Positions 16,805 to 63,013 of a DNA stretch of 64,000 nucleotides are shown piece after piece. The notes beneath the pieces were generated by a model that saw nothing but the letters and a program-made list of their open reading frames with translations, did not search any database and had not been told where the DNA came from. The position numbers and the translations under genes were made by a program. Position 1 is the stretch's first letter, and the number at the start of each line of letters is the position of its first letter. This DNA is from Prostheceraeus crozeri (Eukaryota > Platyhelminthes > Polycladida > Euryleptidae): the NCBI GenBank assembly GCA_907163375.1, contig CAJQUW010007287.1:1-64000 (forward strand). The letters run 5' to 3'.

Positions 16805-17465
16805 CTCTTATCACTTTTGTTCTTGTTTTGGATGATTTTTATTCTGATCATGATGCATGCATATTTTTACCCAATATATTTTTTTAGAATTTCGAATTTC
16901 TACACATCTTTTCACTTCTAATTCATGTACTGGATACTGGAACAATAAATTTGAAACTTCCCCCATGCTATTATTCCTTTATAAATCATAATATAGTGGT
17001 GCAAAGACGATCTTTTAGCGATGCAGCTTCCTGGATACAATGAATTTTCCGTTTACCATTCTCGAAATTGCAAATGAGCACCCCTGCGTTATTTTTGTTG
17101 ACCTGCGTTATTATTTTGAAAACTCGCGCTGGCAGCCCTGGTCTACATCGTTTTCAAAAAAAATGCTGACAACTCTTTCGAAAACCGTGATGTCAATATA
17201 ATCAGGCCTTAGGAAGAAAAATGTGATGTTGTAAAAAAGGTAAGCAAAGCAGATCATGCTCTGTCGTTCCCCTTTAATGATAGTGATGTTTCTGGGTAAC
17301 TAATATAGTTCGTGTTTTCTTCGAAATGGGTCTCCGATCCGTTGTTTTGGCATTCTATACTACCAAGTAATGGTAACTAACTTACATGTGACTGTAGTTG
17401 TCTATGTATTCGATGTGCAACTCTTTTGTTGCATGCTAAGTGATGCGTTTGTCTTTCATATTCAG

Positions 17466-44160: not shown

Positions 44161-44618
44161 AAGACTCGATTCGTCGCAGAAGAGCGTTGGTCAACTGCAT
44201 GTGTGAACTTGCTCCCAGCCGGACCATGACGGCAAATGTAAACTGTTTGATTCGAAAGTGCTTATATGCAGTAGCTCCAGTATATTTGTGGCAATATTTT
44301 TCTGGTCAGGGGAGGACACATTGTAAGAAATACAATTTATTGGACCACGTTCCAAATATACACCGCGCCATATTGACAACAAGCGCCCACGTCACCCGAG
44401 CATCTCAAGAGATAATTTATTCACTCTCCAACGTGATAAAGTCCTGCAAAAATCGAACAGAGTCCAAGACATTCCGATCAAGGCATCCAGAACTTGGCCT
44501 TGTTGATGATTCGATGACAGATCATCCCGACATTGACTTACTTTGTAACGCTGATGCCGAGACAGATAGTGATAAGAACGTGTCAACTTCAGATGATTCT
44601 GATTCTAAAGAAAACTAA
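44161..44618 (+). CDS. Terminal exon of a second BEN/DUF4806-like gene
   Basis: After tttctttag, two bases complete a split codon and the frame reads DSIRRRALVNCMCELAPSRT. The domain itself follows: NCLIRKCLYAVAPVYLWQYF, GQGRTHCKKYNLLDH, RAILTTSAHVTRASQEIIYS and SNVIKSCKNR. Then comes an acidic tail (ETDSDKNVSTSDDSDSKEN) and a stop. The spacing of hydrophobic residues, the G-x-G-K-like loop and the final helix ending in xxxKNR match DUF4806/BEN-like C-termini. The order parallels the last two exons of the gene at 26.7-39.4 kb and the relic at 6241-6696. The acceptor phase (one base carried in) equals that of exon 39289, supporting common descent. The first coding exons of this gene are not visible in the window. 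Confidence 0.6.
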
Positions 44619-45970
44619 TGATTTGTAATCGAAGACAGTGCACTATCCTTTTTATTCTTCCTGATATTGTTCATGAGCTTGTTACTTGATGTACCGTATA
44701 TTGCTTGTCCAATGATGATCAATTGAAATGACGAATGACCATTAAAATTTTCGCGGAGAACTGCTGACAAAACAACAAATTTTGACATCTTGAGAAGATG
44801 TAAAACTGGATACTTATATAGTTGTCTGAATTTGGATGTCCGTATACTGAATAACGTCATTAAATGAAGAACATTTCAATAGAATGACGGCCACTCAGTT
44901 TTGTGTTAGTACGTCTGGGCGATATTCATCAACATCTCTCGACCAACTTCGAGCGCATGACGGTAACTCTGCTTTGTTTGTTTGGCTCTTATTCTATTAT
45001 CTGATGTTTTTATTACATGCTGTCCAGTGCTACTTTCTCTTCCAATCGTCGTCTCTTGAAAATAGTCGGTAATAGGCCTCGAGATGTCAAAAGTGTTGTT
45101 TTGCCTCACATTTATTTTCAGTGATGAACAATTAGATACCATGTAGGCCTACATGCACATTTCTTGCAAAATTGATCAACATTGTCATAATTGAGCATCA
45201 ACTGTTTTTATGTAATAATTTCACCATTGTGCAGCTAGCAAAGTTTCTTGTTAAGCGCACTTATAATTTTATGTCTGAAGTGGTATTCTGATATGTTCAA
45301 ATACTTTTCAATATTTCTATGCTGTACGATTTTTTATGGCATTGAGTTAAATTGCTTTTTATAATTTTGAAGATTTTATCCAGTAAATTTTATTTTGAAT
45401 ATGTTGTCTCTTACATTTTGTCGTAAAAACTAAAAAGTCATTACCAGGAGGACAACAATTTCGTACTGAATATCAATTATGCATGTAGAGCTGCAAATAT
45501 AGGCAGACTTCTGTTTATAACTTTTTTGAAAAATGTTTTTGTACGGTTATGTAGAAAAGATGCGACGACCCAAATTGGAAAACATGCGACTAGCCAAAGC
45601 TTCCCAATTACTTGTCGAATCAATCCTTCATCATTACTAAGCATTTAAGAAACTGAGAGCAAGAAGTTCATGAAGTTTGCCATGAACATGCCATTAGCCA
45701 CAAAAAATCTCATATTTCATCTGTAACACTGTACCAGCCAAAACACCTACTGCATGCCTTAATCTCTCTATTCTTCTGTTTCAATGGTGAATCTATCTAA
45801 TTTATACTGAAATATTCAACCAAGTTAAATAGGAACAAATTTATTTAATCAATAAACGGAATAGCATTCGAAGGTGTATTTCTAGAATCCTTTTGTAAAT
45901 ATATGACCTTGACTTTGTTTTTCTTCACCAACGAAACTACGTGTAAAATCATACAAATACAAATTCTGTT
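44619..45970. other. No gene recognised; possible 5' LTR body at about 45721-46034
   Basis: AT-rich. A TG...CA interval from tgtaacactg (about 45722) to ataccaca (46034) could be the 5' LTR of the BEL element. Only its last 64 bp recurs in the array, so this cannot be confirmed here. Confidence 0.35.
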
Positions 45971-46034
45971 GTACTCTCACTAAAATTGTTCATGAAACTA
46001 GAATAAACTTTTGTTTGTCGGTAAGAATACCACA

Positions 46035-46182
46035 ATTGGTGCCGTGACCACACGACGCAACGCATACACAACGCAAGCTCCTGATGTAAAAGTTTCCATT
46101 TTTATGTGCTATATAAATTTCATGTATTAAGATCAGCTGATCCCTTGTATTTATATATTTAGGTGTTATTCACTACTTGTAA
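46035..46182 (+). promoter_or_regulatory. Primer-binding-site-like leader of unit 1
   Basis: attggtgccgtgacc follows the LTR tail directly, the position of the tRNA primer site in BEL elements. A 150-bp leader precedes ATG 46183. The same leader starts the other units at 49319, 49990, 53268 and 56546. The tRNA was not identified. Confidence 0.55.
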
Positions 46183-47857
46183 ATGTCTACTTTATCAAGT
46201 CTCACTCGGCAACGTGCCGGTCACCGTTCTTACTTTAAGAAATCTTTCAATAAAGTTAAGGCATGTCTTTCTTTCTAGTGAATCTCCTGATATAAACTCA
46301 ATCAGCTTCGATCTCACCTTCTTGAAATCCAAGTTAGACGATATCCGAAATATCGATAAACTAATTATGGAAGCCTATTCCGACGATTTCATCCAGTCAG
46401 ATGAATTTTTTGCGCAGTTAGAAATTGATAACGATTTCATGCGTGACAGTTTACAGGGTCTGCATGAAATTGAAGTTTTTCTTGAAAAACATGTTGTAAA
46501 ACCCGCTGTTGTATCCGCTGCACCTACATGTAAGCCTACGCATTCTAAGCCCACGAGTTTTGCCAAGTTACCCAAGCTACAGATGGTCCATTTTGATGGT
46601 TCAGACATCCGAAAATGGTCTGAATTTTACGACACGTTCTATTCTGAGATAGAGTCAAGAACCGACATTGAAGATATCACTAAGTTCCACTATCTTAACA
46701 ACCTGTTACATGGTCGTGCTAAGGAAAGAATCAACCACATGCGTCCTTCTAACTCATCGTTTCAGCAAGCGATTCAGAAGTTGAAGGATGAGTTTAAGGA
46801 CAGAGATAGGATTAAGAACGCTCATATTGATTCTATAAATGAAATTCCATCAGCTGATAAAACAGCCTCTGATTTGAGACGTTTTTTGGATCAAATCAAG
46901 TTTGATATTTCTGCATTGAGTCATCTTTCTTATGATTCCACCATGTACGGTCCATTTATTTTACCGTCCTTGTTAAGGAAAATTCCGCATTCTCTACAGA
47001 TGAAAATGCTAGATGCCACACATGGTTCGTATCCGTCTCTTGACGAATTTATGTTTTTTCTAGAAACAGAGGTTCGTAAACTTGAGAACCTTGACTCTTT
47101 GACTCTTCATGGTAGGCCAAGTAACCATTTCCAGAATGACGTGCGTAATAGCAATTTTCAAATAGACAGACGAGACGAGTTTGTGAGTACTATGACTGTC
47201 ACTAAGAATTCCAAAAAGCCATTTTCTAAGAACTTCGTTCGGCAGTGTAGTTATTGTAAATCCGAAGATCATTCAACTTACATGTGTCCCCTAAGTGTAA
47301 GTGAGAAAATCACGTTCATCCAATCTCATAAACTGTGTTTCAACTGCTTGGGTTCTCATCTGAAGAAGGACTGTAAATCAAAGGGTAGATGCGCTAAATG
47401 TAGCAGACCTCATCATAGTTCAATTCATTCTCATTTCACAACTGAGAATGTCGGCAGTAGTAATAGTGCTACTAACAGATCTGAAGGTTGTGATCAGTCT
47501 TCTGATCAAAATGGTAAATCTCGACAGCCTCATATCAAGAACACAACCTCATGTAACGATAGTGACGTTTTAAATGATTCCGAGCACGGTGCTCATAATT
47601 CTGACGTAGTTTCTGGCGACCCAGATTCCACTTTGTCGTCCATATCGTTGACTTCTTCTGAGAAGTATAAATCTAAGGATACTTCTTCCAACGTTCTTTT
47701 GAAAACTGTAAAAGCTGTTGCATTTTCTGATGATATAAGGCTTACCGCAAAGATTCTGATCGATGAAGGATCTGGTGTGAAGCGGCAAATCCCAGTTATG
47801 TGGTCTCGAATTCATGGAGGAGCAACTGTTACTGGGAGGAGCCAAAGGAAAATGTAG
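46163..47857 (+). CDS. gag: BEL/Pao gag with protease start, unit 1
   Basis: The natural start is ATG 46183 (MSTLSSLTRQRAGHR). An extra TTTC near 46265 shifts that frame, and the remaining protein is read from the frame opened at 46163. Features in order: a helical N-terminus; the BEL-type gag core with LQMVHFDGSDIRKWSEFYDT and LNNLLHGRAKERINHMRPSN (DUF1759-like); and two zinc knuckles (CSYCKSEDHSTYMC, and CFNCLGSHLKKDCKSKGRC with CAKC following). A serine-rich linker leads to VKAVAFSDDIRLTAKILIDE, the start of the BEL aspartic protease with its D-E-G-S active-site-like turn. The frame then ends at 47857 after about 25 residues that do not belong to BEL. Gag would package RNA in cytoplasmic particles. 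No reverse transcriptase or integrase follows. Confidence 0.88.
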   Translation: MLFTTCKCLLYQVSLGNVPVTVLTLRNLSIKLRHVFLSSESPDINSISFDLTFLKSKLDDIRNIDKLIMEAYSDDFIQSDEFFAQLEIDNDFMRDSLQGLHEIEVFLEKHVVKPAVVSAAPTCKPTHSKPTSFAKLPKLQMVHFDGSDIRKWSEFYDTFYSEIESRTDIEDITKFHYLNNLLHGRAKERINHMRPSNSSFQQAIQKLKDEFKDRDRIKNAHIDSINEIPSADKTASDLRRFLDQIKFDISALSHLSYDSTMYGPFILPSLLRKIPHSLQMKMLDATHGSYPSLDEFMFFLETEVRKLENLDSLTLHGRPSNHFQNDVRNSNFQIDRRDEFVSTMTVTKNSKKPFSKNFVRQCSYCKSEDHSTYMCPLSVSEKITFIQSHKLCFNCLGSHLKKDCKSKGRCAKCSRPHHSSIHSHFTTENVGSSNSATNRSEGCDQSSDQNGKSRQPHIKNTTSCNDSDVLNDSEHGAHNSDVVSGDPDSTLSSISLTSSEKYKSKDTSSNVLLKTVKAVAFSDDIRLTAKILIDEGSGVKRQIPVMWSRIHGGATVTGRSQRKM

Positions 47858-49223
47858 CTGAAATAGTGAGAAAAATTCGGGAATGACATGTGTGAGACAG
47901 GGACCGGACACAGTGGAACGAGCGAACTCCCAGAAGGTATGGTCGACGTACATCAAACGCTAGAAAAGTGCGGCATGCAAATAAGCCAGTGCAACAAATG
48001 GAAAAGTCGGAAGAGATGTCATTACCTTTTGCGAGTGTTGGATGGCAATAAATTGTTACGCTATCTGGATAAGTCTCGACTGATATGGGATTCACTCTTC
48101 AGTGAAAGTTGTCAGAGTGACACCAAGCACAGGAGAATATTCACGCTACCCGTCATCAAAGCTGGTTTCACTGCACACGGGATAAGATATACCGTTGACA
48201 AGATAAACAGAGTGTTGCAAGTTCTCACAACTCGTACAACTAACCTTTGGTTGAGTAACATACTCACATGGGCTTTTTGTGCCAATCAAGATAAATTAGT
48301 TCTCGATACTTGGTACCAACTAGGCATGTGTTCACTTGGTGACATCGAGCAAGCACAGGCGTCAAAATATTTGGAAGAATCGCTACGACGTACTACAAGA
48401 TGGGATAACTTTGTAAAGCTAAGTTTACATCAGCAAAGTCAGATTGTAGGCATCTCTTTAATGCAAGGGCGAGGACGGAATAAGGTGGATTGGGAAAAGG
48501 AGAAGACCGCAAGGTGTGTCCCCGGATGTCAAATTAAGATGAGGTACGACTCTGTGCAAGGAGAAGAAGTGTTCCTGAATCAATTACGTGACATTCTCCG
48601 CGCATATTTAGAACCATTTGTTGATGTCCAAAAGGCCAAAGAGTTGACATGGAACAAGTTTCTGGGAGGTGCCCAACTATGGCTTACTAGTGGATCAACT
48701 GGAAGTGTACATGTGGAGTATGTAGATGGTGCCAACTACAATCAGGAGAAAGAAAACAAGCGAACAGTTGTCGATCATGTAAAAGAAGCCGACCTCAGGA
48801 ACATCTTGAGCATCACACCAGAGGTAATAGCCATGAGTAGTGACAAATTCGAAAATGGGAAGAGAAGAGCTATACGTATACGGGACGACTATGGTCGATT
48901 ATATTATCTGTTCATATTGCTTAGCCATCTACGAACCCGAATTGAACAAGTTACAGTGCCTGGAGGACGGTCTAAGAGGTATTGATGAAATATCAAGTAT
49001 CCAAAATCGATGGGTTGAGTCTTGTAAATCTCACACACATTTTACGATGGGAGACTATGCGGACTTTAACCTACAACACAGTCTTCAAGCACAATCTATG
49101 GTGTTTGCAGTCTTACGAGAGAAAGCTACCAAAACGGCTGATGTGATGAGAAGATCTCATCAGAGCGCTCTACTGGATGGAGAGAGCCCTATTGGAACAA
49201 TATTGTTATTTTCCTGTTGGTGA
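47800..49223 (+). pseudogene. Totivirus-like RdRp fragment, unit 1
   Basis: The longest frame (47888-48985) and the next (48840-49223) together cover the N-terminal region and the first polymerase motifs of a dsRNA-virus RdRp (RdRP_4 type). Visible landmarks are LMQGRGRNKVDWE (motif 1), GGAQLWLTSGSTGS, FENGKRRAI (motif 3, the K/E-x-GKxRAIYG box) and DYADFNLQHS (motif 4, polymerase motif A with its Asp). The GDD motif and the preceding SG...T block are absent: the sequence ends in the LTR-like tail. An extra A near 47872 and an altered stretch at 48873 (ctatacgtatacgg) break the frame in this unit only. It is an endogenous viral relic carried by a retroelement and not an active polymerase. Confidence 0.8.
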
Positions 49224-49318
49224 TGGGAGTGTACGAACTAATAAATAATAATAAGTACTCTCAATAAAATTGTTCATGAAACTAGAATAAACTTTTGTTT
49301 GTCGGTAAGAATACCACA

Positions 49319-49989
49319 ATTGGTGCCGTGACCACACGACGCAACGCATACACAACGCAAGCTCCTGATGTAAAAGTTTTTCATTTTTATGTGCTATATA
49401 AATTTCATGTATTAAGATCAACTGATCCCTTGTATTTATATATTTAGGTGTTATTCACTACTTGTAAATGTCTACTTTATCAAGTCTCACTCGGCAACGT
49501 GCCGGTCACCGTTTTTACTTTAAGAAATCTTTCAATAAAGTTAAGGCATGTCTTTCTAGTGAATCTCCTGATATAAACTCACTCATATTGCTTGGCCATC
49601 TACGAACCCGAATTGAACAAGTTACAGTGCCTGGAGGACGGTCTAAGAGGTATTGATGAAATATCAAGTATTCAAAATCGATGGGTTGAGTCTTGTAAAT
49701 CTCACACACATTTTACGATGGGAGACTATGCGGACTTTAACCTACAACACAGTCTTCAAGCACAATCTATGGTGTTTGCAGCCTTACGAGAAAAAGCTAC
49801 CAAAACGGCTGATGTGATGAGAAGATCTCATCAGAGCGCTCTACTGGATGGAGAGAGCCCTATTGGAACAATATTGTTATTTTCCTGTTGGTGATGGGAG
49901 TGTACGAACTAATAAATAATAATAAGTACTCTCAATAAAATTGTTCATGAAACTAGAATAAACTTTTGTTTGTCGGTAAGAATACCACA
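49319..49989 (+). mobile_element. Internally deleted 0.67-kb unit
   Basis: It keeps the leader, the first 36 gag codons (49468-) and the last part of the RdRp fragment with DYADFNLQHS (frame 49592-49894), then the LTR tail. The join lies at aaactcactcatattgc near 49578, so about 2.6 kb is missing between gag codon 36 and the polymerase. It alone has a single TTTC and the presumed ancestral gag frame (ACLSSESPDINS). Confidence 0.9.
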
Positions 49990-50117
49990 ATTGGTGCCGT
50001 GACCACACGACGCAACGCATACACAACGCAAGCTCCTGATGTAAAAGTTTCCATTTTTATGTGCTATATAAATTTCATGTATTAAGATCAGCTGATCCCT
50101 TGTATTTATATATTTAG

Positions 50118-51812
50118 GTGTTATTCACTCCTTGTAAATGTCTACTTTATCAAGTCTCACTCGGCAACGTGCCGGTCACCGTTCTTACTTTAAGAAATCT
50201 TTCAATAAAGTTAAGGCATGTCTTTCTTTCTAGTGAATATCCTGATATAAACTCAATCAACTTCGATCTCACCTTCTTGAAATCCAAGTTAGACGATATC
50301 CGAAATATCGATAAACTAATTATGGAAGCCTATTCCGACGATTTCATCCAGTCAGATGAATTTTTTGCGCAGTTAGAAATTGATAACGATTTCATGCCTG
50401 ACAGTTTACAGGGTCTGCATGAAATTGAAGTTTTTCTTGAAAAACATGTTGTAAAACCCGCTGTTGTATCCGCTGCACCTACATGTAAGCCTACGCATTC
50501 TAAGCCCACGAGTTTTGCCAAGTTACCCAAGCTACAGATGGTCCATTTTGATGGTTCAGACATCCGAAAATGGTCTGAATTTTACGACACGTTCTATTCT
50601 GAGATAGAGTCAAGAACCGACATTGAAGATGTCACTAAGTTCCACTATCTTAACAACCTGTTACATGGTCGTGCTAAGGAAAGAATCAACCACATGCGTC
50701 CTTCTAACTCATCGTTTCAGCAAGCGATTCAGAAGTTGAAGGATGAGTTTAAGGACAGAGATAGGATTAAGAACGCTCATATTGATTCTATAAATGAAAT
50801 TCCATCAGCTGATAAAACAGCCTCTGATTTGAGACGTTTTTTGGATCAAATCAAGTTTGATATTTCTGCATTGAGTCATCTTTCTTATGATTCCACCATG
50901 TACGGTCCATTTATTTTACCGTCCTTGTTAAGGAAAATTCCGCATTCTCTACAGATGAAAATGCTAGATGCCACACATGGTTCGTATCCGTCTCTTGACG
51001 AATTTATGTTTTTTCTAGAAACAGAGGTTCGTAAACTTGAGAACCTTGATTCTTTGACTCTTCATGGTAGGCCAAGTAACCATTTCCAGAATGACGTGCG
51101 TAATAGCAATTTTCAAATAGACAGACGAGACGAGTTTGTGAGTACTATGACTGTCACTAAGAATTCCAAAAAGCCATTTTCTAAGAACTTCGTTCGGCAG
51201 TGTAGTTATTGTAAATCCGAAGATCATTCAACTTACATGTGTCCCCTAAGTGTAAGTGAGAAAATCACGTTCATCCAATCTCATAAACTGTGTTTCAACT
51301 GCTTGGGTTCTCATCTGAAGAAGGACTGTAAATCAAAGGGTAGATGCGCTAAATGTAGCAGACCTCATCATAGTTCAATTCGTTCTCATTTCACAACTGA
51401 GAATGTCGGCAGTAGTAATAGTGCTACTAACAGATCTGAAGGTTGTGATCAGTCTTCTGATCAAAATGGTAAATCTCGACAGCCTCATATCAAGAACACA
51501 ACCTCATGTAACGATAGTGACGTTTTAAATGATTCCGAGCACGGTGCTCATAATTCTGACGTAGTTTCTGGCGACCCAGATTCCACTTTGTCGTCCATAT
51601 CGTTGACTTCTTCTGAGAAGTATAAATCTAAGGATACTTCTTCCAACGTTCTTTTGAAAACTGTAAAAGCTGTTGCATTTTCTGATGATATAAGGCTTAC
51701 CGCAAAGATTCTGATCGATGAAGGATCTGGTGTGAAGCGACAAATCCCAGTTATGTGGTCTCGAATTCATGGAGGAGCAACTGTTACTGGGAGGAGCCAA
51801 AGGAAAATGTAG
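50118..51812 (+). CDS. gag: BEL/Pao gag with protease start, unit 2
   Basis: Same 564-codon frame as unit 1, with the natural start displaced by the TTTC insertion near 50222. Distinguishing residues are SSEYPDINSINF near the start, Pro instead of Arg before DSLQG, IEDVTKF, SSIRSHF and LETEVRKLENL. Zinc knuckles and the DUF1759-like core are unchanged. The stop at 51810-51812 lies 90 nt into the overlap with the polymerase frame. Confidence 0.88.
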   Translation: MLFTPCKCLLYQVSLGNVPVTVLTLRNLSIKLRHVFLSSEYPDINSINFDLTFLKSKLDDIRNIDKLIMEAYSDDFIQSDEFFAQLEIDNDFMPDSLQGLHEIEVFLEKHVVKPAVVSAAPTCKPTHSKPTSFAKLPKLQMVHFDGSDIRKWSEFYDTFYSEIESRTDIEDVTKFHYLNNLLHGRAKERINHMRPSNSSFQQAIQKLKDEFKDRDRIKNAHIDSINEIPSADKTASDLRRFLDQIKFDISALSHLSYDSTMYGPFILPSLLRKIPHSLQMKMLDATHGSYPSLDEFMFFLETEVRKLENLDSLTLHGRPSNHFQNDVRNSNFQIDRRDEFVSTMTVTKNSKKPFSKNFVRQCSYCKSEDHSTYMCPLSVSEKITFIQSHKLCFNCLGSHLKKDCKSKGRCAKCSRPHHSSIRSHFTTENVGSSNSATNRSEGCDQSSDQNGKSRQPHIKNTTSCNDSDVLNDSEHGAHNSDVVSGDPDSTLSSISLTSSEKYKSKDTSSNVLLKTVKAVAFSDDIRLTAKILIDEGSGVKRQIPVMWSRIHGGATVTGRSQRKM

Positions 51813-53172
51813 CTGAAATAGTGAGAAAATTCGGGAATGACATGTGTGAGACAGGGACCGGACACAGTGGAACGAGCGAACTCCCAGAAGGTATGGTCGA
51901 CGTACATCAAACGCTAGAAAAGTGCGGCATGCAAATAAGCCAGTGCAACAAATGGAAAAGTCGGAAGAGATGTCATTACCTTTTGCGAGTGTTGGATGGC
52001 AATAAATTGTTACGCTATCTGGATAAGTCTCGACTGATATGGGATTCACTCTTCAGTGAAAGTTGTCAGAGTGACACCAAGCACAGGAGAATATTCACGC
52101 TACCCGTCATCAAAGCTGGTTTCACTGCACACGGGATAAGATATACCGTTGACAAGATAAACAGAGTGTTGCAAGTTCTCCCAACTCGTACAACTAACCT
52201 TTGGTTGAGTAACATACTCACATGGGCTTTTTGTGCCAATCAAGATAAATTAGTTCTCGATACTTGGTACCAACTAGGCATGTGTTCACTTGGTGACATC
52301 GAGCAAGCACAGGCGTCAAAATATTTGGAAGAATCGCTACGACGTACTACAAGATGGGATAACTTTGTAAAGCTAAGTTTACACCAGCAAAGTCAGATTG
52401 TAGGCATCTCTTTAATGCAAGGGCGGGGACGGAATAAGGTGGATTGGGAAAAGGAGAAGACCGCAAGGTGTGTCCCCGGATGTCAAATTAAGATGAGGTA
52501 CGACTCTGTGCAAGGAGAAGAAGTGTTCCTGAATCAATTACGTGACATTCTCCGCGCATATTTAGAACCATTTGTTGATGTCCAAAAGGCCAAAGAGTTG
52601 ACATGGAACAAGTTTCTGGGAGGTGCCCAACTATGGCTTACTAGTGGATCAACTGGAAGTGTACATGTGGAGTATGTAGATGGTGCCAACTACAATCAGG
52701 AGAAAGAAAACAAGCGAACAGTTGTCGATCATGTAAAAGAAGCCGACCTCAGGATCATCTTGAGCATCACACCAGAGGTAATAGCCATGAGTAGTGACAA
52801 ATATGAAAATGGAAAGAAAAGAGCTATATACGGACGACTATGGTCGATTATATTATCTGTTCATATTGCTTGGCCATCTACGAACCCGAATTAAACAAGT
52901 TACAGTGCCTGGAGGACGGTCTAAGAGGTATTGATGAAATATCAAGTATCCAAAATCGATGGGTTGAGTCTTGTAAATCTCACACACATTTTACGATGGG
53001 AGACTATGCGGACTTTAACCTACAACACAGTCTTCAAGCACAATCTATGGTGTTTGCAGCCTTACGAGAAAAAGCTACCAAAACGGCTGATGTGATGAGG
53101 AGATCTCATCAGAGCGCTCTACTGGATGGAGAGAGCCCTATTGGAACAATATTGTTATTTTCCTGTTGGTGA
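51755..53172 (+). pseudogene. Totivirus-like RdRp fragment, unit 2
   Basis: This is the best-preserved 5' half: a 379-codon frame from 51755 to 52894 without internal stops. It is in the -1 frame relative to gag and is open from 51722, so it overlaps gag by about 90 nt. It holds the QGRGRNKVDWE and LWLTSGSTGS blocks and YENGKKRAIYG. One g fewer near 52834 than in unit 4 then moves motif A (DYADFNLQHS, about 53002-53031) into the frame 52840-53172. If the next frame is read near the end, a further YWMERALLEQY-type helix is visible before a TAA, so the fragment stops just upstream of polymerase motif B. Confidence 0.82.
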
Positions 53173-53395
53173 TGGGAGTGTACGAACTAATAAATAATAA
53201 TAAGTACTCTCAATAAAATTGTTCATGAAACTAGAATAAACTTTTGTTTGTCGGTAAGAATACCACAATTGGTGCCGTGACCACACGACGCAACGCATAC
53301 ACAACGCAAGCTCCTGATGTAAAAGTTTCCATTTTTATGTGCTATATAAATTTCATGTATTAAGATCAGCTGATCCCTTGTATTTATATATTTAG

Positions 53396-55090
53396 GTGTT
53401 ATTCACTCCTTGTAAATGTCTACTTTATCAAGTCTCACTCGGCAACGTGCCGGTCACCGTTCTTACTTTAAGAAATCTTTCAATAAAGTTAAGGCATGTC
53501 TTTCTTTCTAGTGAATCTCCTGATATAAACTCAATCAGCTTCGATCTCACCTTCTTGAAATCCAAGTTAGACGATATCCGAAATATCGATAAACTAATTA
53601 TGGAAGCCTATTCCGACGATTTCATCCAGTCAGATGAATTTTTTGCGCAGTTAGAAATTGATAACGATTTCATGCCTGACAGTTTACAGGGTCTGCATGA
53701 AATTGAAGTTTTTCTTGAAAAACATGTTGTAAAACCCGCTGTTGTATCCACTGCACCTACATGTAAGCCTACGCATTCTAAGCCCACGAGTTTTGCCAAG
53801 TTACCCAAGCTACAGATGGTCCATTTTGATGGTTCAGACATCCGAAAATGGTCTGAATTTTACGACACGTTCTATTCTGAGATAGAGTCAAGAACCGACA
53901 TTGAAGATGTCACTAAGTTCCACTATCTTAACAACCTGTTACATGGTCGTGCTAAGGAAAGAATCAACCACATGCGTCCTTCTAACTCATCGTTTCAGCA
54001 AGCGATTCAGAAGTTGAAGGATGAGTTTAAGGACAGAGATAGGATTAAGAACGCTCATATTGATTCTATAAATGAAATTCCATCAGCTGATAAAACAGCC
54101 TCTGATTTGAGACGTTTTTTGGATCAAATCAAGTTTGATATTTCTGCATTGAGTCATCTTTCTTATGATTCCACCATGTACGGTCCATTTATTTTACCGT
54201 CCTTGTTAAGGAAAATTCCGCATTCTCTACAGATGAAAATGCTAGATGCCACACATGGTTCGTATCCGTCTCTTGACGAATTTATGTTTTTTCTAGAAAC
54301 AGAGGTTTGTAAACTTGAGAACCTTGACTCTTTGACTCTTCATGGTAGGCCAAGTAACCATTTCCAGAATGACATGCGTAATAGCAATTTTCAAATAGAC
54401 AGACGAGACGAGTTTGTGAGTACTATGACTGTCACTAAGAATTCCAAAAAGCCATTTTCTAAGAACTTCGTTCGGCAGTGTAGTTATTGTAAATCCGAAG
54501 ATCATTCAACTTACATGTGTCCCCTAAGTGTAAGTGAGAAAATCACGTTCATCCAATCTCATAAACTGTGTTTCAACTGCTTGGGTTCTCATCTGAAGAA
54601 GGACTGTAAATCAAAGGGTAGATGCGCTAAATGTAGCAGACCTCATCATAGTTCAATTCATTCTCATTTCACAACTGAGAATGTCGGCAGTAGTAATAGT
54701 GCTGCTAACAGATCTGAAGGTTGTGATCAGTCTTCTGATCAAAATGGTAAATCTCGACAGCCTCATATCAAGAACACAACCTCATGTAACGATAGTGACG
54801 TTTTAAATGATTCCGAGCACGGTGCTCATAATTCTGACGTAGTTTCTGGCGACCCAGATTCCACTTTGTCGTCCATATCGTTGACTTCTTCTGAGAAGTA
54901 TAAATCTAAGGATACTTCTTCCAACGTTCTTTTGAAAATTGTAAAAGCTGTTGCATTTTCTGATGATATAAGGCTTACCGCAAAGATTCTGATCGATGAA
55001 GGATCTGGTGTGAAGCGGCAAATCCCAGTTATGTGGTCTCGAATTCATGGAGGAGCAACTGTTACTGGGAGGAGCCAAAGGAAAATGTAG
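53396..55090 (+). CDS. gag: BEL/Pao gag with protease start, unit 3
   Basis: Same 564-codon frame. Diagnostic residues are SSESPDINSISF (as unit 1), VVSTAPT, EVCKLENL and NDMRNSNF (as unit 4), SAANRSEG and LLKIVKAV. The combination of unit-1-like and unit-4-like alleles in one copy shows exchange between units. The TTTC run has two copies, as in units 1 and 2. Confidence 0.88.
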   Translation: MLFTPCKCLLYQVSLGNVPVTVLTLRNLSIKLRHVFLSSESPDINSISFDLTFLKSKLDDIRNIDKLIMEAYSDDFIQSDEFFAQLEIDNDFMPDSLQGLHEIEVFLEKHVVKPAVVSTAPTCKPTHSKPTSFAKLPKLQMVHFDGSDIRKWSEFYDTFYSEIESRTDIEDVTKFHYLNNLLHGRAKERINHMRPSNSSFQQAIQKLKDEFKDRDRIKNAHIDSINEIPSADKTASDLRRFLDQIKFDISALSHLSYDSTMYGPFILPSLLRKIPHSLQMKMLDATHGSYPSLDEFMFFLETEVCKLENLDSLTLHGRPSNHFQNDMRNSNFQIDRRDEFVSTMTVTKNSKKPFSKNFVRQCSYCKSEDHSTYMCPLSVSEKITFIQSHKLCFNCLGSHLKKDCKSKGRCAKCSRPHHSSIHSHFTTENVGSSNSAANRSEGCDQSSDQNGKSRQPHIKNTTSCNDSDVLNDSEHGAHNSDVVSGDPDSTLSSISLTSSEKYKSKDTSSNVLLKIVKAVAFSDDIRLTAKILIDEGSGVKRQIPVMWSRIHGGATVTGRSQRKM

Positions 55091-56450
55091 CTGAAATAGT
55101 GAGAAAATTCGGGAATGACATGTGTGAGACAGGGACCGGACACAGTGGAACGAGCGAACTCCCAGAAGGTATGGTCGACGTACATCAAACGCTAGAAAAG
55201 TGCGGCATGCAAATAAGCCAGTGCAACAAATGGAAAAGTCGGAAGAGATGTCATTAACATTTGCGAGTGTTGGATGGCAATAAATTGTTACGCTATCTGG
55301 ATAAGTCTCGACTGATATGGGATTCACTCTTCAGTGAAAGTTGTCAGAGTGACACCAAGCACAGGAGAATATTCACGCTACCCGTCATCAAAGCTGGTTT
55401 CACTGCACACGGGATAAGATATACCGTTGACAAGATAAACAGAGTGTTGCAAGTTCTCCCAACTCGTACAACTAACCTTTGGTTGAGTAACATACTCACA
55501 TGGGCTTTTTGTGCCAATCAAGATAAATTAGTTCTCGATACTTGGTACCAACTAGGCATGTGTTCACTTGGTGACATCGAGCAAGCACAGGCGTCAAAAT
55601 ATTTGGAGGAATCGCTACGACGTACTACAAGATGGGATAACTTTGTAAAGCTAAGTTTACACCAGCAAAGTCAGATTGTAGGCATCTCTTTAATGCAAGG
55701 GCGAGGACGGAATAAGGTGGATTGGGAAAAGGAGAAGACCGCAAGGTGTGTCCCCGGATGTCAAATTAAGATGAGGTACGACTCTGTGCAAGGAGAAGAA
55801 GTGTTCCTGAATCAATTACGTGACATTCTCCGCGCATATTTAGAACCATTTGTTGATGTCCAAAAGGCCAAAGAGTTGACATGGAACAAGTTTCTGGGAG
55901 GTGCCCAACTATGGCTTACTAGTGGATCAACTGGAAGTGTACATGTGGAGTATGTAGATGGTGCCAACTACAATCAGGAGAAAGAAAACAAGCGAACAGT
56001 TGTCGATCATGTAAAAGAAGACGACCTCAGGATCATCTTGAGCATCACACCAGAGGTAATAGCTATGAGTAGTGACAAATATGAAAATGGAAAGAAAAGA
56101 GCTATATACGGACGACTATGGTCGATTATATTATCTGTTCATATTGCTTAGCCATCTACGAACCCGAATTAAACAAGTTACAGTGCCTGGAGGACGGTCT
56201 AAGAGGTATTGATGAAATATCAAGTATCCAAAATCGATGGGTTGAGTCTTGTAAATCTCACACACATTTTACGATGGGAGACTATGCGGACTTTAACCTA
56301 CAACACAGTCTTCAAGCACAATCTATGGTGTTTGCAGTCTTACGAGAGAAAGCTACCAAAACGGCTGATGTGATGAGAAGATCTCATCAGAGCGCTCTAC
56401 TGGATGGAGAGAGCCCTATTGGAACAATATTGTTATTTTCCTGTTGGTGA
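55033..56450 (+). pseudogene. Totivirus-like RdRp fragment, unit 3
   Basis: It reads 55033-55257, then stops at a TAA (cattaacat, where units 1 and 2 have cattacctt and unit 4 has cattgccat). It resumes in the same frame at 55261-56151. The one-base deficit before the motif A frame (56118-56450) is shared with unit 2. It has EDDLRIIL where others have EADLR. Confidence 0.8.
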
Positions 56451-56773
56451 TGGGAGTGTACGAACTAATAAATAATAATAAGTACTCTCAATAAAATTGT
56501 TCATGAAACTAGAATAAACTTTTGTTTGTCGGTAAGAATACCACAATTGGTGCCGTGACCACACGACGCAACGCATACACAACGCAAGCTCCTGATGTAA
56601 AAGTTTCCATTTTTATGTGCTATATAAATTTCATGTATTAAGATCAGCTGATCCCTTGTATTTATATATTTAGGTGTTATTCACTCCTTGTAAATGTCTA
56701 CTTTATCAAGTCTCACTCGGCAACGTGCCGGTCACCGTTCTTACTTTAAGAAATCTTTCAATAAAGTTAAGGC

Positions 56774-58372
56774 ATGTCTTTCTTTCTTTCTAGTGAATAT
56801 CCTGATATAAACTCAATCAACTTCGATCTCACCTTCTTGAAATCCAAGTTAGACGATATCCGAAATATCGATAAACTAATTATGGAAGCCTATTCCGACG
56901 ATTTCATCCAGTCAGATGAATTTTTTGCGCAGTTAGAAATTGATAACGATTTCATGCCTGACAGTTTACAGGGTCTGCATGAAATTGAAGTTTTTCTTGA
57001 AAAACATGTTGTAAAACCCGCTGTTGTATCCGCTGCACCTACATGTAAGCCTACGCATTCTAAGCCCACGAGTTTTGCCAAGTTACCCAAGCTACAGATG
57101 GTCCATTTTGATGGTTCAGACATCCGAAAATGGTCTGAATTTTACGACACGTTCTATTCTGAGATAGAGTCAAGAACCGACATTGAAGATGTCACTAAGT
57201 TCCACTATCTTAACAACCTGTTACATGGTCGTGCTAAGGAAAGAATCAACCACATGCGTCCTTCTAACTCATCGTTTCAGCAAGCGATTCAGAAGTTGAA
57301 GGATGAGTTTAAGGACAGAGATAGGATTAAGAACGCTCATATTGATTCTATAAATGAAATTCCATCAGCTGATAAAACAGCCTCTGATTTGAGACGTTTT
57401 TTGGATCAAATCAAGTTTGATATTTCTGCATTGAGTCATCTTTCTTATGATTCCACCATGTACGGTCCATTTATTTTACCGTCCTTGTTAAGGAAAATTC
57501 CGCATTCTCTACAGATGAAAATGCTAGATGCCACACATGGTTCGTATCCGTCTCTTGACGAATTTATGTTTTTTCTAGAAACAGAGGTTTGTAAACTTGA
57601 GAACCTTGATTCTTTGACTCTTCATGGTAGGCCAAGTAACCATTTCCAGAATGACATGCGTAATAGCAATTTTCAAATAGACAGACGAGACGAGTTTGTG
57701 AGTACTATGACTGTCACTAAGAATTCCAAAAAGCCATTTTCTAAGAACTTCGTTCGGCAGTGTAGTTATTGTAAATCCGAAGATCATTCAACTTACATGT
57801 GTCCCCTAAGTGTAAGTGAGAAAATCACGTTCATCCAATCTCATAAACTGTGTTTCAACTGCTTGGGTTCTCATCTGAAGAAGGACTGTAAATCAAAGGG
57901 TAGATGCGCTAAATGTAGCAGACCTCATCATAGTTCAATTCATTCTCATTTCACAACTGAGAATGTCGGCAGTAGTAATAGTGCTACTAACAGATCTGAA
58001 GGTTGTGATCAGTCTTCTGATCAAAATGGTAAATCTCGACAGCCTCATATCAAGAACACAACCTCATGTAACGATAGTGACGTTTTAAATGATTCCGAGC
58101 ACGGTGCTCATAATTCTGACGTAGTTTCTGGCGACCCAGATTCCACTTTGTCGTCCATATCGTTGACTTCTTCTGAGAAGTATAAATCTAAGGATACTTC
58201 TTCCAACGTTCTTTTGAAAACTGTAAAAGCTGTTGCATTTTCTGATGATATAAGGCTTACCGCAAAGATTCTGATCGATGAAGGATCTGGTGTGAAGCGG
58301 CAAATCCCAGTTATGTGGTCTCGAATTCATGGAGGAGCAACTGTTACTGGGAGGAGCCAAAGGAAAATGTAG
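56774..58372 (+). CDS. gag: BEL/Pao gag with protease start, unit 4
   Basis: The TTTC run has three copies (about 56777-56792), so the frame opened here starts MSFFLSSEYPDINS and is 532 codons. The natural ATG upstream at 56696 is out of frame with it. It carries SSEYPDINSINF as unit 2 but EVCKLENL and NDMRNSNF as unit 3. Otherwise identical in the core, zinc knuckles and protease start. Confidence 0.88.
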   Translation: MSFFLSSEYPDINSINFDLTFLKSKLDDIRNIDKLIMEAYSDDFIQSDEFFAQLEIDNDFMPDSLQGLHEIEVFLEKHVVKPAVVSAAPTCKPTHSKPTSFAKLPKLQMVHFDGSDIRKWSEFYDTFYSEIESRTDIEDVTKFHYLNNLLHGRAKERINHMRPSNSSFQQAIQKLKDEFKDRDRIKNAHIDSINEIPSADKTASDLRRFLDQIKFDISALSHLSYDSTMYGPFILPSLLRKIPHSLQMKMLDATHGSYPSLDEFMFFLETEVCKLENLDSLTLHGRPSNHFQNDMRNSNFQIDRRDEFVSTMTVTKNSKKPFSKNFVRQCSYCKSEDHSTYMCPLSVSEKITFIQSHKLCFNCLGSHLKKDCKSKGRCAKCSRPHHSSIHSHFTTENVGSSNSATNRSEGCDQSSDQNGKSRQPHIKNTTSCNDSDVLNDSEHGAHNSDVVSGDPDSTLSSISLTSSEKYKSKDTSSNVLLKTVKAVAFSDDIRLTAKILIDEGSGVKRQIPVMWSRIHGGATVTGRSQRKM

Positions 58373-59661
58373 CTGAAATAGTGAGAAAATTCGGGAATGA
58401 CATGTGTGAGACAGGGACCGGACACAGTGGAACGAGCGAACTCCCAGAAGGTATGGTCGACGTACATCAAACGCTAGAAAAGTGCGGCATGCAAATAAGC
58501 CAGTGCAACAAATGGAAAAGTCGGAAGAGATGTCATTGCCATTTGCGAGTGTTGGATGGCAATAAATTGTTACGCTATCTGGATAAGTCTCGACTGATAT
58601 GGGATTCACTCTTCAGTGAAAGTTGTCAGAGTGACACCAAGCACAGGAGAATATTCACGCTACCCGTCATCAAAGCTGGTTTCACTGCACACGGGATAAG
58701 ATATACCGTTGACAAGATAAACAGAGTGTTGCAAGTTCTCCCAACTCGTACAACTAACCTTTGGTTGAGTAACATACTCACATGGGCTTTTTGTGCCAAT
58801 CAAGATAAATTAGTTCTCGATACTTGGTACCAACTAGGCATGTGTTCACTTGGTGACATCGAGCAAGCACAGGCGTCAAAATATTTGGAAGAATCGCTAC
58901 GACGTACTACAAGATGGGATAACTTTGTAAAGCTAAGTTTACACCAGCAAAGTCAGATTGTAGGCATCTCTTTAATGCAAGGGCGAGGACGGAATAAGGT
59001 GGATTGGGAAAAGGAGAAGACCGCAAGGTGTGTCCCCGGATGTCAAATTAAGATGAGGTACGACTCTGTGCAAGGAGAAGAAGTGTTCCTGAATCAATTA
59101 CGTGACATTCTCCGCGCATATTTAGAACCATTTGTTGATGTCCAAAAGGCCTAAGAGTTGACATGGAACAAGTTTCTGGGAGGTGCCCAACTATGGCTTA
59201 CTAGTGGATCAACTGGAAGTGTACATGTGGAGTATGTAGATGGTGCCAACTACAATCAGGAGAAAGAAAACAAGCGAACAAGTGACAAATACGAAAATGG
59301 GAAGAAAAGAGCTATATACGGGACGACTATGGTCGATTATATTATCTGTTCATATTGCTTGGCCATCTACGAACCCGAATTGAACAAGTTACAGTGTCTG
59401 GAGGACGGTCTAAGAGGTATTGATGAAATATCAAGTATCCAAAATCGATGGGTTGAGTCTTGTAAATCTCACACACATTTTACGATGGGAGACTATGCGG
59501 ACTTTAACCTACAACACAGTCTTCAAGCACAATCTATGGTGTTTGCAGTCTTACGAGAGAAAGCTACCAAAACGGCTGATGTGATGAGAAGATCTCATCA
59601 GAGCGCTCTACTGGATGGAGAGAGCCCTATTGGAACAATACTGTTATTTTCCTGTTGGTGA
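58315..59661 (+). pseudogene. Totivirus-like RdRp fragment, unit 4
   Basis: A 279-codon frame (58315-59154) ends at a TAA that replaces AAA (gcctaagag). The frame resumes at 59158 and, unlike the other units, stays open through YENGKKRAIYGTTMVDYIIC into DYADFNLQHS. One unit therefore still shows motifs 3 and 4 in a single reading frame. About 71 bp between gcgaaca and agtgacaaa (near 59280) is deleted relative to the other units. No GDD region follows; the LTR-like tail starts near 59693. Confidence 0.82.
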
Positions 59662-60012
59662 TGGGAGTGTACGAACTAATAAATAATAATAAGTACTCTC
59701 AATAAAATTGTTCATGAAACTAGAATAAACTTTTGTTTGTCGGTAAGAATACCACACAGCTGCTACACCCACTTAGACATTTGTAAGACGTGGAATATAT
59801 ATCCAACAAATCCTACTCCAGCTGCAGTGCCGTGAAACAATACACAACAACAATAATCGATATGGCTATTTCAAACAATTGTGCCGAAGACTTATTTAAT
59901 TTAACAGTGTTTCTTGTCAGTGAAGGTTGTGTCAAAACGCTCTCGTCATATATTTCTCAAAATGAGTCAAGATTAATTTGAAGATAGAAAAAAACAATCG
60001 TTGCCAGGGAGC

Positions 60013-60303
60013 ATGGAAAAATTACGAGAGGAATTGAAGAGGAATATATTTGAGAGGAATATAGTATTTACAGATTCTTTGAGTGATATCATAGAGCCAA
60101 ATGGTGGAGAGGATAATACAATTGTAAACTTACGAAAATTCTTGTTGCATGAAAAAAGAAGCAATTCACTCAGTGTTATGTGTACAATTTTTATCGGCAA
60201 ACACATCAACTATCTTCTATCTCTTTGTGATAATGACAAGACAGATTTTCATAGTCTCTTGAAGAAAAAATCAGCTCAATTACCGAAGTTTCATTTGTTA
60301 TGA
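60013..60303 (+). CDS. Hypothetical protein, unknown
   Basis: Starting at ATG 60013, the frame reads EKLREELKRNIFERNIVFTD and continues through NTIVNLRKFLLHEKRSNSLS to a stop. A different frame just after it (MKLGKLADKFPTLCRVSVPL, 60300-60400) might be a continuation after a frameshift. I do not recognise a family. It is charged, helical and without membrane segments or cysteines of note. It lies between the BEL array and the Polinton remnant and might belong to either or to neither. Confidence 0.3.
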   Translation: MEKLREELKRNIFERNIVFTDSLSDIIEPNGGEDNTIVNLRKFLLHEKRSNSLSVMCTIFIGKHINYLLSLCDNDKTDFHSLLKKKSAQLPKFHLL

Positions 60304-60602
60304 AATTAGGTAAATTAGCAGACAAATTTCCTACGCTTTGTAGGGTGTCTGTTCCTCTTGGACTTTTCAAAACGCGACCTAACTATATTGGAAGATTGTG
60401 TAAAGCAATTGTGTGACATTCTAAATGATTCCATTCTTCTCCCAAACAATGGTGCGTCATTTAGCGACAATACCGCGCTGACATATTCAATGGAATTTGG
60501 ATGTTAAACTCCGCTATTGTTACTGCGATACGGCCGCACGACACTTTATTTTCAATGTTTAGACCTATGCCATTTCATTATAATTTTCTTGAACAATGGT
60601 GC

Positions 60603-60960
60603 GCCATTCAGCTAAAATACGGCGCTTCAACCAATTAGAACGCGTGCACGCCGTGGACAGAAATCCCATTGTTAAGAAAACTTATCATTCTTGTATCTCT
60701 GTTTTATATGCAATGCTATTTCCTTTTTTACATGTACATACAATTACTATGCCATTCAGCTAAAATACTGCGCTTCAACCAATTAGAACGCGTCCATGCC
60801 GTGGACAGAAATCCCATTGTTAAGAAAACTTATCATTCTTGTATCTCTCAGTTTTATATGCAATGCTATTTCCTGCTTTACATGTACATACAATTACTAT
60901 GCCATTCAGCTAAAATACCGCGCTTCAACCAATTAGAACGCGTCCACGCCGAGGACATAT
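60603..60960. repeat. 148-150-bp tandem repeat, 2.4 copies
   Basis: gccattcagctaaaata begins at 60603, 60751 and 60901. Each unit includes cgcttcaaccaattagaacg and, in the first two, ttaagaaaacttatcattct. A related fragment (acaatggtgcgtcattta) occurs at about 60450. Non-coding; the ORF 60669-60977 reads through it. Confidence 0.9.
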
Positions 60961-61091
60961 CTTCATGTATTCTGTGAATGTAACCAAAGTGAATGTATGC
61001 AAAGTGGATGTAACCAAAGTAAAATAAGCATGTGTTGTTTTTGATTTCACATTTACGGTAATATAATAGAAACATTTTATCTTCTATAAAA

Positions 61092-61579
61092 ATGAGCAAC
61101 ATAAATGAGTTCTTAAAAATATATGGCAAACAAACAACAACGAATTTTGATCTTAAGAAAATCGCTAATCAATTGGGAATAAAGAATTTTCACATATTGA
61201 GAGACGAATTACAATTCCTAAAAAAAATAAGCCATCAGGAACCTTCAGTTCCCGGAACAAAGTTCCAACTATAAATTTCGTAACCAATCTCCACACGTCA
61301 GATCAAAAAGGAGTACATTGGTCTGCAGGAACGTCTAATAAAAACGCAGATAATTACTATTTTGACCGCCCTGAGGCTGAGAACTATTGGTTCGACTGTT
61401 ATGGTCTTCCCCCTACAAATGAAGTCAAAGAATTACTTGGAAATGGAATTTATAATACATTTCAAATTCAAAAACCAGGAACAACTTATTCCGGTCAATT
61501 ATGTCTTTATGTTTTATTTAAATTACAAAAGGGAGTACCATTTCTTGATATTATGTTAGAATTGAATAAGGTAATTTAA
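61092..61579 (+). pseudogene. Polinton adenain-like cysteine protease
   Basis: The first frame (61092-61274) carries KIANQLGIKNFHILRDEL, the region before the protease core. The second (about 61257-61579) has KGVHWSAGTS (catalytic His in HW), NYWFDCYGLPPTNEVKELL (the Asp/Glu-type strand with the FDxxGxxPP motif) and YSGQLCLYVLFKL, where active relatives have LCGxxC. Here the first Cys is replaced by Ser-Gly. The protein would mature capsid proteins in an active element. The frameshift near 61255 and the changed Cys motif indicate a dead gene. Confidence 0.75.
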
Positions 61580-61605
61580 TTCCCGAAAAAACGTTAGTTC
61601 AAAAA

Positions 61606-62170
61606 TTAAAAATCACTTCGTTGTAATTCATTTTGATAAAATCGGCCTCTGATATCTTCATCATCTAAATCTTTGATTTCGTAAGTAATCGGATTAGTTT
61701 GATTTATTTTAGAAACTTCAAATATTTCTTTTGTCCAATAGCCAAGAAAGCCTTTTTCAAATTTATTCTTATACTTAAATATTCTAACTCTATCTCCAAT
61801 CTTAAATTTCGGCTTAAGTTTCTGCAAATTCGGATTACTCTCATTCGAGTAATTATTTTCGAATATTTTCTTACGTATCAAATCAGGGTCGTCAGAAGCA
61901 TTCTTTGGAGTTTCTTCAATACCTGAATGAATCTTATTGTTATAATCCTTAACAATTCCTGGTAATATCTTTAACCATTTCTGATTTCCCTGTTCTGTAA
62001 ATTTCTTGAATAATTTATCTTTTAACGTTCTATTGAATCTTTCTATTACTACAACCTTTCCTGCATTTTCAGTTGAATAAACTGAGCCTTGGCGATGACT
62101 TTCGTCTGTTTCAAATAGTGGCTGAACATTTCTGTTATAACTCCGATCCTTTATCAACAAACAATTTTTT
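61606..62170 (-). pseudogene. Polinton integrase, C-terminal part
   Basis: The minus-strand frame 62229-61606 includes VVIERFNRTLKDKLFKKFTE (the catalytic Glu of the DDE triad), PGIVKDYNNKIHSGIEETPK and a C-terminal chromodomain-like SH3 fold (FKIGDRVRIFKYKNKFEKGF). It ends TYEIKDLDDEDIRGRFYQNE as in Polinton integrases. Residues before about 62170 are out of frame; the N-terminal part with the two Asp is in the neighbouring frame (62135-63013). One frameshift near 62150-62170 separates them. Confidence 0.85.
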
Positions 62171-63013
62171 TGGCTTTCTATTAGTTTCTTTAAAGATTTC
62201 TTCAAACGCATATTTAACTGACAGACCACTTTTATTTTTTAAAGGCTTTACCCAAGCGTATCGTGTATATAAATCTATAACGGTCAATGCGTATTTATAA
62301 TCTTTTTCATTCGGCATATGAATTAGATCAGCACTCCAAATATCATCTTTATTAAATACTTTTACTTTCAATAGATATTTAGGCCTTCTGTATTCTTTAT
62401 GGATTTCGGACGCATAGCGTCCTAGGTCATTCGACATTTCAGACGCGTAGGTTCGAGCGTTGCTCTCAGACAGCTTTGCAGTCGTTTCATTTGCTGACGG
62501 ATCAATACCCTGTCCGAACAATATTTTAGCTTGTAAAGCTTTCTTAACAAACATTCTTTCAATTCTTTCTCTAAATGTAGGATTTTGGATACTATCTAAT
62601 TCTTGAATCATCTTCTTATCAGCTGCATGACGAGATTTTAGGTCATGATTTCGATAAGCTAAATCATGTCTGTAAGCTGCGGCATCTACTCTATTTATTG
62701 GTTCTTCACCTGGTTTCGGATTATTATTCTCATCTAGTCTGATATCTAATCGAGTTCCTGGACCGGTATATGAATGACCAGGGAGATGTTTTTCTTTTGA
62801 ATATTTACTCCAAATAAATCCAGGAAAGTTTTCTAATGTTTTTTGTATGTCACCTCCGGAATGCTGACAATTTGAGGGTTTATGTACTTTTAAGAGATAA
62901 TTCAATAAATCTAAATTAGAAATTTTTAATTTAATTAAATTTTCGGAATTCATTTTAAAAGATAAAATATTTTTAAAGATAAAATAAAATAAATGTTTTA
63001 CCGAATTGGACAA
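62135..63013 (-). pseudogene. PLA2-like domain fused to Polinton integrase N-terminal part
   Basis: A 292-codon minus-strand ORF. Residues about 40-170 form a phospholipase-A2-like domain of the type seen in parvoviral VP1 and in some Polintons: HSYTGPGTRLDIRL, INRVDAAAYRHDLAYRNHD (calcium-loop and His-Asp dyad) and SIQNPTFRERIERMFVKKAL. After a linker, YLLKVKVFNKDDIWSADLIH starts an integrase core, with SADLIH (first Asp), LTVIDLYTRYAWVKPLKNKS and FVDKGSEL (second Asp). It then breaks into the neighbouring frame. In Polintons these are normally separate genes, so the fusion may be a true joint ORF or the product of a deletion between two genes. The domain could disturb membranes during particle entry; that role is known only for the viral relatives. 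Confidence 0.75.

Follow-up and report, generated by a model that had tools for sequence, protein, structure and literature searches.

The 64,000-nt stretch of the polyclad flatworm Prostheceraeus crozeri analysed here (contig CAJQUW010007287.1, positions 1 to 64,000; hereafter the window) contains, at 45885-59756, an array in which four full units and a single 671-nt deletion unit follow one another head to tail. Every full unit consists of the gag region of a BEL/Pao retrotransposon joined to about 1.48 kb of totivirus-like RNA-dependent RNA polymerase (RdRp) of the RdRP_4 type. A second chimera, in which a related RdRp is joined to the gag of another BEL family, is present on two other contigs of the same 2.05-Gb assembly, C1034 and C14000. 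We consider it probable that these chimeras arose through recurrent template switching by BEL reverse transcriptases (RTs) on totivirus-like RNA, followed by tandem amplification.

The junction and its two partners

The breakpoint between BEL and virus is exact on the BEL side. All six BEL stretches that were fetched (six of 29 copies) diverge from full unit 2 at 51727, and beyond this position unit 2 shares with BEL only a piece of the long terminal repeat (LTR), apart from about 60 nt that match five of the six on the minus strand at the level of chance. The non-BEL piece of unit 2 spans 51728-53203, and its 3' junction enters the LTR at position 91. The gag frame of unit 2, on the forward strand with BEL homology over 50118-51727, matches DUF1759 at 1.2e-24 (unit 2 being the only unit scanned), has the CCHC cysteines of the zinc knuckles in alignment with BEL-like proteins, and ends in ILIDEGS, which alignment with five BEL-like proteins identifies as the start of the BEL protease. 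DUF1758 was matched in two of four BEL relatives scanned, in one of the two under the curated cut-off. A first-pass annotation of the window, made from its letters alone, had proposed just such a BEL/Pao gag ending at the protease start IDEGS, and this is confirmed. It had also described gag as passing into the polymerase within a few codons, to which two corrections apply in unit 2: the junction is at 51727, and gag (50118-51812) and RdRp (51722-52894) overlap there in different reading frames. The RdRp is broken into further frames.

The viral part of unit 2 (51728-53203, forward strand) lies in several broken frames and is recognised by profile matches and by comparison with viral relatives. 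PF02123 (RdRP_4) is matched in two pieces in unit 2 (1.1e-7 and 1.5e-8) and in a piece of unit 4 (6.9e-15), in both units over the curated cut-off, which bears out the earlier proposal of a totivirus-like polymerase fragment; unit 1 is also matched in two pieces (3.2e-6 and 1.4e-9), and coverage in the window extends over profile positions 57-334 of 465. A protein search with the window RdRp piece found no match among 1767 candidates, which were restricted to 1.75 times the query length, and the longer frame of C1034 as query found seven totivirus-like RdRps of 924-1021 aa on contigs of 6.7-7.4 kb, one of them Hanko totivirus 9. A scan of IMG/VR gave two pattern matches and no relative. Motif A (DYADFN) is present in the window frames and in seven of seven viral relatives; another landmark at first ascribed to every full unit, ENGKKRAIYG, is not read in unit 1.

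In all seven relatives motif B (SGxRxT) lies 65-67 residues and GDD 106-108 residues past DYADFN. The last RdRp piece of the window (53099-53194), is in another frame and has no Pfam match on its own; its alignment with relative P0007 reaches residue 453 (motif B at 462) and that with P0006 residue 550 (motif B at 554). No GDD was found in the three forward frames between motif A and the unit end in units 2 and 4, and a single SG pair occurs in one frame of unit 4. The window RdRp stops short of motifs B and C (GDD), and because these are missing we take the piece to be a dead fragment, from which no polymerase function would be expected. A sequence match in the PDB to RavO (0.0054) for 51755-52891 was weak and taken as chance, and the 3' piece of the RdRp gave no match in a PDB sequence search. 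The beginning of the non-BEL piece, 51728-51942, has no profile match; its interpretation as an older gag remnant was dropped, and we call it viral from its likeness by eye (CEATNPSYVVS versus EAANPNYVVS) to the viral side of contig C5751, which carries a third RdRp sequence.

The BEL family of the window is young and recently active, because the 5' and 3' LTRs are identical in three of four complete elements and the target-site duplications (TSDs) of the four are perfect or nearly so. These four elements (L051-L054) are 6145-6163 nt in length, each with an LTR of 154 nt; the differences between their 5' and 3' LTRs number 0, 0, 0 and 4, and the 5-bp TSD is perfect in three and present in four of its five bases in the fourth. 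In L053, the one copy examined for this, gag-pol is a frame of 1877 aa. The assembly has at least 42 matches to 45600-46300 (best 40 of 138 candidates scored). Among 29 BEL copies, 28 begin with TGTG followed by GAATCC, and the remaining copy, L010, has TCTG; the window has TCTA before the same GAATCC. Comparison with these copies shows the 5' LTR of the array (45885-46034, forward strand) to be 150 of 154 nt long, without the first four bases (TGTG). It is followed after 2 nt by the primer-binding-site-like TGGTGCCGTGACC (46037-46049, forward strand), which is at the same place in BEL copies and presumably fits a tRNA-His primer.

The internal and 3' repeats of the array retain only the final 64 nt of the 154-nt LTR, with the break at 90/91. 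The full LTR rules out the 64-nt repeat as a whole short LTR, and the idea that it is exactly R-U5, left by a jump of strong-stop DNA to viral RNA, was dropped, as the full LTR only places the break at 90/91. An early jump and a later deletion at this break would look the same in the present sequence. The window units have no protease, RT, RNase H or integrase of their own, and no RT or integrase match was found in the unit frames scanned by profile.

The 64-nt repeat starts at 45971, 49255, 49926, 53204, 56482 and 59693, so that the units are, in array order, 3284, 671, 3278, 3278 and 3211 nt long, the last copy being 64 nt alone. All units are on the forward strand. Full unit 1 (45971-49254) has, by alignment to unit 2, its BEL part to 47772 and its viral part at 47773-49254; the short unit (49255-49925) fuses the unit start to the 3' part of the RdRp through an internal deletion of about 2.6 kb; full units 2 (49926-53203) and 3 (53204-56481) follow; full unit 4 (56482-59692) has about 70 nt deleted within its RdRp part; and the last 64 nt of the LTR (59693-59756) form the right end of the array. 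An earlier placement of the array at 45971-59756 had this right end correct and the left end 86 nt too far in, the first LTR reaching to 45885, and its repeated unit is valid for the four full units, one of the five being the 671-nt deletion unit. Full units differ pairwise by 0.50-0.67% substitutions. The array contig is 100,659 nt long and the viral gene is bordered by host repeats, as is characteristic of a non-retroviral endogenous viral element. Rfam gave no matches in the window.

A second chimera in another BEL family

The assembly contains further RdRp loci of this kind. A search with the residues of 52340-52891 gave 23 matches, five in the window, 14 on C1034, one on C14000, two on C5751 and one on C8367. 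With PF02123 (E <= 0.001) there were 17, of which six are on the window contig (C6060), nine on C1034, one on C14000, one on C5751 and none on any other contig; the same profile gave no matches in 14 control genomes. The RdRp sequence on C5751 shares 57% and 53% of residues with the other two, and its match (296-460) reaches the end of the profile. The C8367 match (L068, 4387-4611), at 41% identity, is a much more divergent RdRp remnant and may stem from an earlier integration of this group of viruses.

C1034 carries an array with nine complete matches to a 1.9-kb unit query at a spacing of 3288-3296 nt (units of about 3291 nt), in which adjacent units are 99.8% identical by BLAST. One unit has a 589-aa gag-RdRp frame that matches DUF1759 (7.9e-5, just under the cut-off) and RdRP_4 (5.5e-18), and most other C1034 copies listed carry a stop within the RdRp. 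At the DNA level its gag matches a BEL copy on C13979 with 98.4% identity as far as residue 147 of the 589-aa frame. Nine copies of this family (BEL2) match the C1034 unit from the same point, about 10 nt ahead of a primer-binding-site-like sequence, and a tenth matches from further in. Protein identity between BEL2 and the window family is 27-29% in the four stretches that aligned. At C1034:98900-106100 (L065), about 0.9 kb of other repeats, with internal duplications of 281 and 64 nt, lies between the RdRp end and the primer-binding site and gag. The unit lengths of the two chimeras are nearly equal (3278 versus about 3291 nt), and both stop the RdRp near motif B, where C14000 continues.

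C14000 is the unamplified counterpart of the C1034 array. It is 98.1% identical over 2.4 kb to the head of the C1034 locus and 98.6% identical to the C1034 units, and over 147 codons the two contigs differ by three synonymous and two nonsynonymous changes. Two anchors that they share are separated by 38,854 nt on C1034 and by 11,199 nt on C14000, a difference of 8.4 units. The order on C14000 is gag-RdRp-RT-RNaseH-integrase. Its RdRp (RdRP_4 1.4e-25) continues through motif B into CDDQSIAQLL, beyond which are a BEL RT/RNaseH (Peptidase_A17 1.4e-33), an integrase (rve 2.7e-6 and H2C2 1.6e-5, both just under their cut-offs) and then a frame that by eye looks like a long interspersed nuclear element (LINE); the element is broken by stops and a frame change. 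The normal BEL2 RT reads ALRQAISQCDDQSIAQLL, and in the switch region CDDQSIAQLL is preceded by AISQ in the BEL2 RT and by RLHK in the C14000 chimera. As the BEL2 RT itself carries CDDQSIAQLL, the CDD is that of BEL, and the switch from virus to BEL is therefore located where the virus has GDD. Viral and BEL letters probably matched at this switch, which would make it a site of microhomology.

The window and C1034 RdRps share 65% of residues, with a proportion of synonymous differences (pS) of 0.884, which is saturated, and of nonsynonymous differences (pN) of 0.208 over 295 aligned codons. Since conserved amino acids alongside saturated silent sites are not what a dead fragment would show, the two most likely diverged as parts of two related working viruses, which would imply two captures.

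Amplification, origin and rival explanations

Amplification of the window units points to a process at the DNA level rather than retrotransposition, because the copies are tandem and form one clade, and because their junction was not detected elsewhere in the assembly. For the stretch that spans it, 51700-52100, the 2.05 Gb gave four matches, all within the window. The LTR-gag regions of the four full units group together as a single clade (FastTree support 0.876) and have in common a 4-nt insertion present in none of the 29 BEL copies, along with two substitutions found in 0 and 1 of the 29, a set that includes the outlier L019 (distance 0.42), which does not align over gag. The short unit does not have the insertion, and the BEL copy nearest to the gag of unit 2 is at a distance of 0.67%. 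The first-pass annotation was right that the chimera had multiplied; the window chimera did so in tandem and not by retrotransposition. The shared insertion falls inside the frame that is open in L053, and gag was therefore already shifted when the full units were copied. Between window units, variable codons in gag are one synonymous and ten nonsynonymous, and in two RdRp parts four to seven and four to one; on these few sites there is no sign of constraint on gag since amplification. The layout, with the long LTR at the left and 64-nt pieces elsewhere, would fit unequal exchange between the 64-nt LTR pieces.

We propose that, during reverse transcription, a recently active BEL/Pao element copied both its own RNA and that of a totivirus-like double-stranded RNA virus, switching template between the two. 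The growing strand would have left the viral RNA within the RdRp gene and resumed in BEL RNA at the protease start (51727), producing an LTR, primer-binding site and gag joined to RdRp. The remainder of pol and positions 1-90 of the LTR are missing from the 3' side of the window chimera, either through later loss or because they were never acquired. This defective chimera would then have been copied at its locus in head-to-tail fashion, for which unequal exchange between the 64-nt LTR remnants would be the simplest mechanism. A second, independent event of this kind, between another BEL family and a related virus, would have given rise to C14000, with one switch at the GDD/CDD codons, and to the C1034 locus, longer by about eight units. 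Template switching, as suggested at the outset, is the best-supported origin because C14000 has BEL on both sides of the RdRp and a probable microhomology at one switch; in the window units the viral piece is not enclosed by BEL in this way.

Both ends of the window array lie in repeats. At the right end the LTR end ACCACA abuts a high-copy transposon (59757-62500; best 40 of 1120 candidates scored) that continues upstream of the join in nine of nine copies checked, and the array therefore cuts a transposon copy. The other half of this copy is not at the left of the array, and a stretch related to it lies about 20 kb to the right, on L006. The left flank (44500-45881) is another repeat, of which an 88%-identical paralogue on C3238 continues past the join with no array. 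Within or next to the right-flank transposon, a minus-strand frame at 61606-63013 has a phospholipase A2-like domain (PF08398) and then an integrase core (rve). Elsewhere in the window are a 45-bp tandem repeat of 14.6 copies with 98% matches (22437-23091), open in several frames, and two related frames of hAT-transposase type (12383-13900 and 16448-16921), with PF05699 in the first, the only one scanned.

Several of these features weigh against our proposal as it applies to the window. The array has no TSD, its units are without two complete LTRs (the left LTR misses 4 nt and the others are 64 of 154 nt), its two flanks are different repeats, and its 3' junction has no microhomology to the LTR upstream of the break. 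The absence of a TSD and the differing flanks mean that rearrangement or abnormal integration is needed, and a simple insertion of the window chimera by BEL integrase appears unsupported. Such features would fit chromosomal fusion of an ordinary endogenous viral element to a BEL copy through breakage, deletion or ectopic recombination, with no template switching: both array ends look rearranged, the 3' junction is without microhomology, and C5751 provides a further, more diverged genomic copy of the virus group. However, we consider joining at the DNA level unlikely: on C14000 the RdRp is flanked by the gag and RT of a single BEL family, arranged as in the element and with a switch at matching catalytic codons, and chimeras formed in two BEL families with exact internal breakpoints.

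Recurrent template switching is also to be preferred over a single ancient capture, in which a gag-RdRp chimera originated in one event and later swapped its gag for that of other BEL families. The RdRp is cut just ahead of motif B in both chimeras, and their arrays have units of near-equal length, as a common origin would predict. In contrast, C14000 keeps motif B despite being 98.6% like the C1034 units, so the cut is secondary there; the gag junctions differ, being at the protease start in one and in the gag interior in the other; and saturated silent sites with kept amino acids are a poor fit to a long life as a dead fragment. We therefore regard one ancient capture as very unlikely. It is also very unlikely that the 589-aa gag-RdRp frame is a domesticated host gene under selection, with the arrays as gene amplifications. 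The frame is open in a C1034 unit and amino acids are conserved between the window and C1034 arrays, but the RdRp is interrupted by a stop in most of the C1034 copies listed, and the window units have broken frames and the one synonymous and ten nonsynonymous variable codons in gag given above. A chimeric contig or falsely expanded array is likewise very unlikely, since although assembly of tandem arrays is difficult and the two flanks come from different loci, the units carry distinct substitutions and indels, and an independent second array and its unamplified counterpart are found on other contigs.

Significance and relation to known systems

How RNA viruses that lack a reverse transcriptase reach the germ line generally has to be deduced from endogenous elements in which the machinery responsible has left no mark. 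Here the retrotransposon part is still attached, sister copies are present in the same genome, and the breakpoints are readable to the base on the BEL side in two unrelated BEL families. The GDD/CDD junction of C14000 suggests that shared letters of a catalytic motif guide the jump, which can be checked in other genomes, and the length difference between C1034 and C14000 makes a case for recent amplification of a viral fragment. More speculatively, BEL/Pao RTs might repeatedly jump to totivirus-like RNA through matching DD codons, with gag-RdRp units kept and expanded as an inherited antiviral store, acting as a source of small RNA or as a gag-carried RdRp decoy; we hold this broader scenario to be rather doubtful.

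Our literature search, whose coverage excluded most subscription papers and preprints, found no totivirus-like RdRp joined to a BEL gag. The architecture was at first considered unusual, and it is, with published precedents (PMC5177903, PMC7642597, PMC5497376). A survey of endogenous RdRps uses neither "gag" nor "Pao" in its main text (PMC12548735). Toti-like endogenous elements of planthoppers are another instance of totivirus-like sequence in an animal genome; they are described as a co-opted host gene, in a paper whose main text contains neither "tandem" nor "LTR" (PMC10636211). That LTR-retrotransposon machinery can recombine with a non-retroviral RNA virus and integrate the product is known from chimeras of lymphocytic choriomeningitis virus (LCMV) and intracisternal A-particle (IAP) elements (Geuking et al., as reviewed in PMC3205384), which differ in being experimental, in mouse and with an arenavirus, the review stating that no endogenous LCMV has been found.

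Closer to the present case are captures by BEL/Pao elements themselves. AeBunya1 of Aedes aegypti is a bunyavirus-like sequence carried by a full-length Pao-Bel element, for which template switching was named as likely; it resembles our chimeras as an RNA-virus piece embedded in a Pao-Bel element and differs in its bunyavirus-like origin, the text available to us mentioning no tandem array (PMC5497376). In the Anakin elements of mosquitoes, BEL-Pao has likewise captured an RNA-virus gene, in this case a chuvirus glycoprotein, and some elements are complete, whereas in the window an RdRp replaces pol in a dead tandem unit (PMC7642597). The nearest counterpart is eBxnv-1 of Bursaphelenchus xylophilus, a nodavirus RdRp in a Bel/Pao element of the Tas clade, for which copy-choice recombination was proposed (PMC5177903). 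It resembles the present case in having an RNA-virus RdRp inside a BEL/Pao element with short LTRs (132 nt conserved in eBxnv-1, and called truncated), and is reported as a single copy in which no gag was found (PMC5177903). In P. crozeri, by contrast, the RdRp is totivirus-like, gag is kept, there are two chimeras and tandem arrays, and the junctions can be read against sister copies. Chimeras of BEL/Pao elements with viral RdRps are thus already known, and what is unusual here is that they are recurrent, base-exact on the BEL side and tandemly amplified.

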